Shown one piece after another: positions 47,078 to 49,652 of a DNA stretch of 64,000 nucleotides. The stretch lies in contig NZ_JAUSQZ010000001.1 in assembly GCF_030811555.1 (NCBI RefSeq), positions 186,001 to 250,000 of the forward strand, in the 5' to 3' direction. The DNA is from Kineosporia succinea (GTDB taxonomy: Bacteria; Actinomycetota; Actinomycetes; Actinomycetales; Kineosporiaceae). Within the stretch, counting starts at the first letter, position 1, and every line of letters begins with the position of its first letter. A program made the translations under genes and the position numbers. The notes under the pieces are model-generated. The model was not told the origin of the DNA. It ran no database searches and saw nothing but the letters and a program-made list of their open reading frames with translations.

Positions 47078-47157
47078 CCCATGCCACCCGACCGGCCCCG
47101 GCCTACCCGCCCTGACCCGATCGGCCAGCCCCACCGGACCAGGCTCGACCTACCGGG

Positions 47158-47490
47158 CCCGACCTACCCGGCCCCCACCGGACAGAGCCCGACCCACCCC
47201 GCCCTACCCAACCGGGCCCGACCTCCCCGCCCCACATCGGACCAAGCCCGACCCACCCCGCCCAACCGGGCCCGACCTCCCCGGCCCACACCGGACCGAG
47301 CCCGACCTACCCCGCCCTACCCAACCGGGCCCGACCCACCCCGCGCCCCACCAAACCGGGCCCGACCTCCCGCCCCACACCGGACCAAGCCCTACCCACC
47401 CCGCCCCACCCAACCGGGCCCGACCTCCCCGCCCCACACCGGACCAAGCCCTACCCACCCCGCCCCACCCAACCGGGCCCGACCTACCGG
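47158..47490. repeat. About 59-base minisatellite with G-quadruplex potential
   Basis: Five or so degenerate copies share the core GGGCCCGACCTCCCCGCCCC and CACCGGACCAAGCCC. The last two copies (47353-47411 and 47412-47470) are nearly identical. On the minus strand each of these reads GGGTGGGGCGGGGTGGGTAG, five G-runs with one-base loops (47390-47411 and 47449-47470), a textbook G-quadruplex motif. Confidence 0.8.
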
Positions 47491-47629: not shown

Positions 47630-47673
47630 GATCCTGGTTCTTTCGATTATCGATAATCGAAAGAACCAGGATC
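47630..47673. repeat. 44-base perfect palindrome
   Basis: The left arm starts GATCCTGGTTCTTTCG and the centre is ATTATCGATAAT. Both 22-base arms match without a mismatch or spacer. The centre is A+T-rich, in contrast to its surroundings. Confidence 0.9.
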
Positions 47674-47714: not shown

Positions 47715-47762
47715 TGAAATACCGCAGGGCCGAGGAGTTCTCCTCGGCCCTGCGGTATTTCA
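47715..47762. terminator. Strong hairpin with 23-base perfect arms
   Basis: The arms start TGAAATACCGCAGGGCCGAG and are exact complements around a two-base loop. The AAATA/TATTT ends give short T runs in both directions. A bidirectional terminator between the M15-type and M4 genes. Confidence 0.8.
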
Positions 47763-47943: not shown

Positions 47944-49338
47944 TCACCTCGGCCCCGGGTTCGCCTCCGGGTCGGCCGCAGAGTTGGCCTCTGAGGCGGC
48001 CCCCGAGTTGGGCGCCGAGTTGGGCGCCGTGTTGGGCGCCGTGTTGGACGCCGTGTTGGACGCCGAGTTGGACGCCGAGTTGGACGCCGAGTTGGCCCCC
48101 GAGTTGGCCCCCGAGTTGGCCCCCGAGTTGGATGCTGTCTTGGCCGCTGTGTTGGCCAGGGGGCTGAGCACGGCGGTGGCCTCGGAGTCGGCCCCGGCTC
48201 CCCCACCGGATCCCGACTCGAGGTGGGTCAGGTCGACGACGGTGACCGGGGCGTCTTCAGGCAGTTGCACCGTGACCTCGACGGCCACGCCGGCCCAGGC
48301 GGCCAGGACGACGGCGGCCTCTTCGGCACCGAACAGGGCGTTCGCCTGGGACACCGTGATGGCGGCGAACTCGGCGAACGTGGCCGTGGTGCTGAGCTGC
48401 GGGTCGGACAGCGCCGCGAACCAGATGGGGCCGGCCTTCTCCCAGGCGTAACCACCGAGGCCGGTCGCGGCCAGGTAGAACGCCCGGTTGGGGATGCCCG
48501 AGTTCACGTGGACGCCACCGTTGTCGTCGTCCATCTCGACGTAGTCGGCCATCGTGGCGGGTTGAGGGTCTTTGCCGAGATCGGGGTCGTCGTAGGCGGT
48601 TCCGGGGTCTTTCATCGAACGCAGCGCCACCCCCCGCACGCCCTCGGCCAGCAGCCCGGCACCGATCAGCCAGTCGGCCTCCGGTGCGGTGGGCCGGGGC
48701 TCGGCGGCGTACTGCTTGACGAGCACACCGAACACGTCGGACATCGACTCGTTGAGCGCGCCGGACTGCCCCTCGTAGACCAGGTCACGCACGGAACCGG
48801 TGACGCCGTGGGCGAGTTCGTGCCCGATCACGTCGAGCGAGACGGTGAACCGGTTGAACACCCGGCCGTCACCGTCGCCGAACACCATACGGGAACCGTC
48901 CCAGAAGGCGTTGTCGTAGTTGCGGCCGTAGTGCACGGTCGCGTCGAGCGGGAGGCCGGCGCCGTCGATCGAGTTACGCCCGAAAACCTCCTGCCAGAAG
49001 GTGAACGTGGCGCCGAGACCGTCGTAGGCCTCGTTGACAGTGACGTCGGCAACCGGCTCGTCGCCCTCGCGCCGCACCTCGGTGCCGGGCAGCTGCTGGC
49101 GGTTCTCGGCATCGGACACCGTGCGGTTCGCCGTGGTGTCGGCGGCCTCGAGGGCCGTGGCGGTGCGGGCGACCGGACGTGTGAGACGTGCGGCTCGCAA
49201 CCGGCGGTCGACGGCCAGGTCGGCCCGGGCCGCCTCGCGCAGATCGCCGGGACCGTGCTCGGCCAGGTGCTCGAGCATGTACGGCGGAAGAACGTGGTGC
49301 AGGCCAAGACTCGCGACGGCTCGTTCGGACGGGTTCAT
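47944..49338 (-). CDS. Protealysin-like M4 metallopeptidase with repetitive Asn/Ser/Ala tail
   Basis: A 464-residue thermolysin-family zinc protease. The first about 50 residues (LHHVLPPYMLEHLAEHG) form the short protealysin-type propeptide, and there is no signal peptide, so it is probably made as a cytoplasmic precursor. The catalytic domain has VIGHELAHGV (zinc site and Glu), GALNESMSDVFGV (third ligand) and GGVHVNSGIPNRAFYLAATG. From about 400 comes a tail of eleven four-residue repeats (NSGA, NSAS, NTAP), absent from typical protealysins. ATG 49338 has GGGGGAG upstream. A GTG at 49362 overlapping the preceding stop is an alternative. Preceded by a gene for an emfourin-type inhibitor. Confidence 0.88.
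   Translation of the reverse strand: MNPSERAVASLGLHHVLPPYMLEHLAEHGPGDLREAARADLAVDRRLRAARLTRPVARTATALEAADTTANRTVSDAENRQQLPGTEVRREGDEPVADVTVNEAYDGLGATFTFWQEVFGRNSIDGAGLPLDATVHYGRNYDNAFWDGSRMVFGDGDGRVFNRFTVSLDVIGHELAHGVTGSVRDLVYEGQSGALNESMSDVFGVLVKQYAAEPRPTAPEADWLIGAGLLAEGVRGVALRSMKDPGTAYDDPDLGKDPQPATMADYVEMDDDNGGVHVNSGIPNRAFYLAATGLGGYAWEKAGPIWFAALSDPQLSTTATFAEFAAITVSQANALFGAEEAAVVLAAWAGVAVEVTVQLPEDAPVTVVDLTHLESGSGGGAGADSEATAVLSPLANTAAKTASNSGANSGANSGANSASNSASNSASNTASNTAPNTAPNSAPNSGAASEANSAADPEANPGPR
48002..48133. repeat. Eleven 12-base repeats in the M4 protease gene
   Basis: Plus-strand unit GCCGAGTTGGAC with variants encodes the NSGA/NSAS/NTAP tail in frame. The copies are similar enough to allow slippage. 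Confidence 0.85.
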
Positions 49339-49358
49339 CTGCTCACTCCCCCTGTGAC

Positions 49359-49652
49359 TCACGAGTAGGACGACAGCAGCTCGATCAGCGCGCCCAGCGC
49401 CGGGTCTGCGAAGGGCTCCGCGACCTTCACTGTGTGACGGGTGGATCCGTCGTGCACGGACAGTTCGTAGACGAAGCGGTCGCCCGCCCGCGGTGGCTCC
49501 GCGGGACGCCCCACGATCTCGTCGACCCGGGCCTCCCGGACCGCCGACTCGACCCGCTCAGCCTCGCCTTTCGGCAGCGTACTCGTGTCCACCGACATTT
49601 TCGGCCGGGCCAGGCCCGCGAATCCTCCGCTGCGCCGCAGGGTGACGAGCAT
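49359..49652 (-). CDS. Emfourin-like protease inhibitor
   Basis: A 97-residue protein. The N-terminus MLVTLRRSGGFAGLARPKMS carries the SGGFAG motif of emfourin (M4in), the cognate inhibitor of protealysin. The rest (DRFVYELSVHDGSTRHTVKV, ADPALGALIELLSSY) fits that small beta-rich family, though it is slightly shorter than the usual about 115. The ATG has GAGGA upstream. The downstream neighbour is a protealysin-like protease in the same operon, which strongly supports the assignment. The inhibitor gene comes first, so it is translated before its target. Confidence 0.85.
   Translation of the reverse strand: MLVTLRRSGGFAGLARPKMSVDTSTLPKGEAERVESAVREARVDEIVGRPAEPPRAGDRFVYELSVHDGSTRHTVKVAEPFADPALGALIELLSSYS

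Follow-up and report, generated by a model that had tools for sequence, protein, structure and literature searches.

Results

Genes and features at the locus

The window analyzed here is a stretch of 64,000 nucleotides from the genome of Kineosporia succinea. Its minus strand contains two adjacent genes, the first of which (49359..49652) encodes a small protein of 97 amino acids and the second (47944..49338) a protease of 464 amino acids. The initial annotation had proposed that an emfourin-like inhibitor gene, recognized by an SGGFAG motif, precedes the gene of a protealysin-like protease without a signal peptide. This was borne out: the emfourin frame runs from 49652 to 49359 and the protease frame follows from 49338 to 47944, these coordinates being exact, and both products match the families proposed.

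The translated first gene matches the Pfam family Emfourin (PF20242) with 81.4 bits, well over the cut-off of 27. The match covers model positions 1-90 of 91, and the SGGFAG motif occupies residues 8-13. It is the single emfourin match in the 8.07 Mb genome; a search of NCBIfam assigned no family to the protein. The emfourin of Serratia plymuthica, whose locus (L099) is protease-first whereas that of the window is inhibitor-first, is 20% identical to the window protein, and the conserved GGFA sequence is kept.

An AF2 model of the window emfourin (pLDDT 81), for which the input alignment included one Serratia row, was used for a fold search of the PDB. No match at an E-value of 0.001 or better was obtained. 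None of the best matches was strong (E-values between 2.5e-3 and 4.5e-3, rmsd between 7.0 and 9.4): the SSI-family structures 6i0i and 3ssi came first, and the emfourin NMR model 6zyg, with the Serratia row in the alignment, ranked third (E 4.5e-3, TM 0.36, rmsd 9.4). The similarity to the SSI-family inhibitors SSI (3ssi) and SSTI (6i0i), with E-values of 2.5e-3 and 3.5e-3, comes with an rmsd of about 7 and, unlike for emfourin, no match to the sequence family, and we do not claim homology. In searches of the PDB by sequence, 6zyg was not retrieved with the window emfourin as a single query. A profile including the Serratia row retrieved it at an E-value of 1.9e-22, a result that is not independent. 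When Serratia rows were omitted from the profile, 6zyg still ranked first, but at an E-value of 0.012. Because these fold and PDB matches are weak, membership of the emfourin family rests on the Pfam match and the gene context, from which the first gene is assigned to encode an emfourin-family protein (PF20242) and predicted inhibitor.

The second gene product contains the domains Peptidase_M4 (PF01447, 104.3 bits) and M4_C (PF02868, 167.7 bits), both far above cut-off; the whole genome holds one further M4_C match, in a more distant protein. Its best relative of solved structure is 2vqx (E 2.3e-117), listed under the title METALLOPROTEINASE, which we take to be the protealysin precursor. In an alignment of 17 proteases, the HELAH sequence, the zinc-binding and catalytic motif of family M4, lies at residues 173-177 (48808..48822, minus strand), and the catalytic columns H173, E174, H177, E197 and H277 (numbering of A1) are invariant. 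No signal-peptide-like hydrophobic stretch was seen in the first 40 residues, where the maximum 12-residue Kyte-Doolittle mean is 1.18. The protein starts with a predicted short propeptide region of about 50 residues, the end of which is not precisely set (49189..49338, minus strand). The alignment with 2vqx begins at residue 11 and spans PPYML, a PPL-type propeptide motif (PPYM at residues 18-21), but the search for PLN_propep (PF16485), the domain named in the initial annotation, gave a sub-threshold score (17.6 bits against a cut-off of 28.1). Judged by its domains, its match to 2vqx and its N-terminus, the second gene product is a predicted leaderless protealysin-like M4 protease. The tail survey and the repeat scan also revealed a C-terminal tail of 111 residues (47947..48279, minus strand), in part of which (47951-48157) a 12-bp unit encoding ANSG-like residues is repeated about 17 times.

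The two genes are separated by a 20-bp gap (49339..49358, minus strand) that contains the ribosome-binding-like sequence AGGGGGAG, and the likely start of the protease gene is the ATG at 49338 behind it. Mechanical ORF calling gave an alternative start, the GTG at 49362, by which the protease gene would overlap the emfourin gene (-4 bp). This start is less likely, since in the genus's five other genomes the protease begins with the ATG that corresponds to 49338. The distance between the emfourin stop codon and the protease ATG is 16, 16, 17, 20, 22 and 22 bp in the six genomes of the genus, and AGGGGGA is present in this gap in all six. Upstream of the pair and outside it, a co-directional gene encodes a BrkB-family membrane protein (PF03631; 49774..51186, minus strand). 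Genes for TPR, BrkB and M15 proteins are present in the 14-18 kb around the locus in each of the five relatives from the genus, the M15 gene lying at most about 4 kb away from that of the protease. A conserved promoter 5' of the emfourin gene was not found in the genus (49% mean column identity), and a scan of this region for sites of the sigma-70-like type gave none, with 0.1 expected by chance. Downstream of the protease gene, the repeat scan detected a perfect 23-bp inverted repeat with a 2-nt loop (47715..47762), a possible terminator that was not flagged by a scan for terminators with a T-run.

Gene order in related pairs

Two profiles made for this analysis, one of emfourin and one of M4, were used to score 292 loci. 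Emfourin-positive genomes were obtained for the phylum (21/296), class (82/296), order (43/198) and family (6/13, all six in the window's genus), for the genomes of named loci (8/10), and for the phyla of Segetibacter (7/277), Serratia (25/378), Alkalinema (12/194) and the Acidobacteriota MAG (15/247), these samples overlapping. A protease-only search gave a best 80 loci, from named genomes. Identical domain sequences and M4 matches of fewer than 200 model positions were removed; the length criterion eliminated two protease-first loci. The sample is non-random, most loci having been chosen for having emfourin and 80 for a protease resembling that of the window.

The resulting 225 distinct M4 proteases comprise 199 that are protease-first, 12 that are inhibitor-first, one with the emfourin gene on the opposite strand and 13 without emfourin within 1 kb. 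Thus, 211 of the 225 form same-strand pairs within 1 kb, and the inhibitor-first order accounts for 12/211 and the protease-first order for 199/211, including 15 single-chain fusions. Half of the inhibitor-first cases lie outside the window's genus (n=6): L204 and L210 from the Acidobacteriota phylum search, L086 from a MAG without a phylum, L093, L140 (Segetibacter) and L147 (a Fibrobacter MAG). L093, from an Acidobacteriota MAG, is a weak case, with an emfourin score of 18 bits and an empty Pfam search of its genome. A spacing of at most 30 bp was found for 123/184 unfused protease-first pairs (median 20 bp) and for 7/12 inhibitor-first pairs (median 22 bp).

We rejected the possibility that inhibitor-first is a general actinobacterial trait, since 88/88 distinct pairs that the genome searches of the same phylum gave outside the genus are protease-first, a count that does not include matches in G422 and G562. 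These other Actinomycetota pairs, for example those of Streptomyces, consist of the same two families, adjacent, on the same strand and similarly spaced, and are unlike the window in their order. One protease from a genome of the window's class shares 92% identity with that of a named Streptomyces, which places the window's genome among the actinobacteria. As far as sequence comparison can tell, the pair of the window is the known protealysin-emfourin system, and gene order is what differs; in the sample searched, inhibitor-first is a rare architectural variant of the known operon. A literature search, whose coverage left out most subscription papers, returned no publication that treats the order of emfourin genes or their fusion.

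The order of the pair is conserved in the genus

Emfourin is followed by the protease in 6/6 genomes examined in the window's genus, and the six proteases form a single clade (SH-aLRT 100). In pairwise comparisons among five of these genomes (G705 was left out), dN/dS ranged from 0.23 to 0.55 in the emfourin gene and from 0.11 to 0.34 in the protease gene. Values below 1 imply that both genes are under purifying selection and, together with the order in all six genomes, that the arrangement is not due to chance. The simplest explanation is that the order was inverted once, in the genus's ancestor.

The dN/dS of the emfourin gene is mostly above that of its protease (loci L001 and L049-L053), for example 0.44-0.52 against 0.21-0.34 in pairs with the window's genome. 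Elsewhere in the family, four genomes of two other genera (L225-L228, L238-L241) contain a protealysin-like protease (47% identity) and no detectable emfourin; of the neighboring ORFs tested, that at L239 encodes a leucyl-tRNA synthetase and that at L238 a DUF2079 membrane protein.

Inhibitor-first pairs in the protease tree

In a protease tree built with a quick method without bootstrap, the inhibitor-first rows are scattered. The order label changes seven times on the best tree, and three or four of these changes are forced by well-supported branches. A single origin, or transfer from one source, for all twelve inhibitor-first proteases was rejected on this quick tree (AU p 3e-71). The inhibitor-first order therefore appears to have more than one origin; the exact count of origins is unsure because the deep branches are weak (32/69 inner branches are open).

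Fusions, tails and lone emfourins

The protease and emfourin are joined in one reading frame at 15 loci (L022, L031, L057, L060, L061, L062, L063, L064, L065, L103, L143, L258, L259, L264 and L279). The protease is N-terminal in all 15, and a low-complexity linker of 17-51 residues connects the domains. Pfam detected M4 and Emfourin above cut-off in 5/5 fusions tested. For L103, a natural fusion from Knoellia koreensis, AF2 produced a model with a pTM of 0.71 and no inter-domain error given; the model does not settle the docking. Fusions resemble the pair of the window in containing the same domains, which are made in a fixed ratio, and differ in being one polypeptide with a linker and the protease in front, whereas the window has two genes with the inhibitor first.

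Protease tails measure 28-49 residues in the relatives of the genus, and 111 in the window with its expanded 12-bp repeat. A tail of at least 28 residues was found in 6/6 proteases of the genus, 3/6 other inhibitor-first proteases and 5/184 unfused protease-first proteases. We do not claim that long tails go with the inhibitor-first order, a test of independent pairs having yielded only two pairs on starred branches and no power. Nor is an origin of the tail from a former fusion linker supported: in the tree, the genus stands apart from the fused rows included there (L031, L063, L143, L258 and L259), and only one emfourin was found in the 14-18 kb around the locus in each of five relatives. 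By eye, and with chance not assessed, a D[LV]T motif (VVDLT, VVDVT, IDLT) was seen in the tails of all six proteases of the genus.

At 33 of the 292 loci (duplicates kept, many of them covering 1.5 kb on each side), an emfourin match occurs without M4 in the stretch examined. Among seven such loci tested, a sigma-70 region 2 (ECF-like) gene precedes the emfourin gene in three (L205:1483-2538, L206:1483-2632 and L020:1069-2922) and is absent in L202, L254, L257 and L038.

Discussion

PMC6778150 reports that protealysin of Serratia accumulates as an inactive precursor and matures after lysis, so that the first lock there is the propeptide. Emfourin of Serratia forms a 1:1 complex with protealysin, and without the emfourin gene culture density falls earlier (PMC9505478). 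The pln-m4in operon of Serratia proteamaculans resembles the pair of the window in its leaderless M4 protease, in the short PPL-type propeptide, predicted for the window (PPYML is also present in 2vqx), and in its adjacent emfourin gene; compared with Serratia protealysin, the window protease has a long C-terminal tail. Opinions differ on what emfourin does biologically: it may be a housekeeping lock, or it may give immunity against a delivered protease.

We consider it reasonably probable that the window contains a two-gene protealysin-emfourin operon of inverted order, in which the inhibitor acts as a second lock and its first position keeps it at or above a 1:1 ratio to the protease. According to this proposal, emfourin and protease would be co-transcribed, the first gene giving the small inhibitor and the second, which starts after a gap of 16-22 bp with a strong ribosome-binding-like site, giving the leaderless protease with its short propeptide. 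The protease would stay inside the cell as a propeptide-locked zymogen, and emfourin would bind any enzyme that matures prematurely. Maturation and activity of the enzyme would follow upon lysis or once it is delivered elsewhere. The 97-residue protein would be expected to inhibit the protease. The proposal draws on the Pfam and PDB sequence matches, on fold matches of the emfourin model that are weak yet consistent, and on the order, spacing, neighbors and dN/dS in the genus; it is weakened by the low identity to the S. plymuthica emfourin, by the E-value of 0.012 for 6zyg and by the missing conserved promoter. The account that assumes least is that emfourin is a second lock and that the inverted order perhaps raises its amount, and an inhibitor level at or above 1:1 would be the likeliest effect of the order.

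The initial annotation had gone further, proposing that the order protects the cytoplasm in the manner of a toxin and its antidote. The identification of the genes and their order stood, but protection as the cause of the order is no more than a possibility: 199/211 pairs have the opposite order, the unfused pairs among them are as tightly spaced, and all 15 fusions are protease-first, so the protease need not have its inhibitor made first. In Serratia, moreover, the precursor is inactive to begin with. Protection of the cytoplasm by the inhibitor-first order is possible and not required, and gene order alone should not be taken as toxin-antidote logic. Type II toxin-antitoxin systems conventionally have the gene of the neutralizer first, adjacent and closely spaced to that of the toxin. 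The pair of the window shares these features, but its "toxin" would be a protease with a propeptide, and in its inhibitor Pfam finds Emfourin alone and no DNA-binding domain, which speaks against a DNA-binding antitoxin. We do not file the pair as a type II toxin-antitoxin system.

The inverted order might also be neutral, that is, a rearrangement that happened to become established in the genus, the lock and the inhibitor working as they do in protease-first operons and dosage being unaffected. Both orders and fusions coexist within the family, order changes are scattered over the tree, and spacing is alike in both orders (the medians of 22 and 20 bp given above). Moreover, a dosage benefit may be nil, because 199/211 pairs manage with the other order. 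Against this, the order is uniform in the genus and rare overall (12/211), which indicates that it does not drift freely, and we regard neutrality as rather unlikely, though it deserves weight. The pair itself is real, conserved and unusually ordered; the protective reading of its order is plausible.

A role as an interbacterial weapon, in which the protease is delivered to neighbors, emfourin confers kin immunity and an immunity-first order is favored, appears improbable to us. Effector-immunity pairs more often have the effector gene first, a signal peptide was not seen on the protease, and the genes identified next to the locus (BrkB and M15) are not known delivery genes. Such a weapon has been proposed for Serratia from the cleavage of FtsZ and RecA by protealysin and the presence of the inhibitor in the same operon (PMC9505478). 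Very unlikely is a main role of the emfourin-fold protein other than inhibition of this protease, for instance a regulatory one: the emfourins without M4 and the sigma-factor genes preceding three of seven of them point that way, and the latter make a second role of the fold possible, but emfourin is paired with the protease throughout the genus, GGFA is conserved and the score is far over the Pfam cut-off.

The uniformly inverted genus and the natural fusions provide ready-made variants for the question of inhibitor:protease dosage in vivo. A broader view, which we offer as speculative and doubtful, is that gene linkage in protease-inhibitor operons acts as an evolvable dose control. One pair of proteins occurs in both gene orders and as a single chain; selection for an excess of inhibitor would have produced the inhibitor-first order repeatedly, and in some lineages the protease would also have gained a C-terminal extension that alters the place or time of its action.

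Repeats downstream of the pair

Besides the possible terminator, a perfect 44-bp palindrome is present downstream of the protease gene at 47630-47673 of the window. Its 32-base core was found in no other fetched locus except L024 and L219, which overlap the window. A C-rich tandem array with periods of 59 bp and 148 bp occupies positions 47152-47488, with the M15 peptidase gene on one side and the palindromes on the other.
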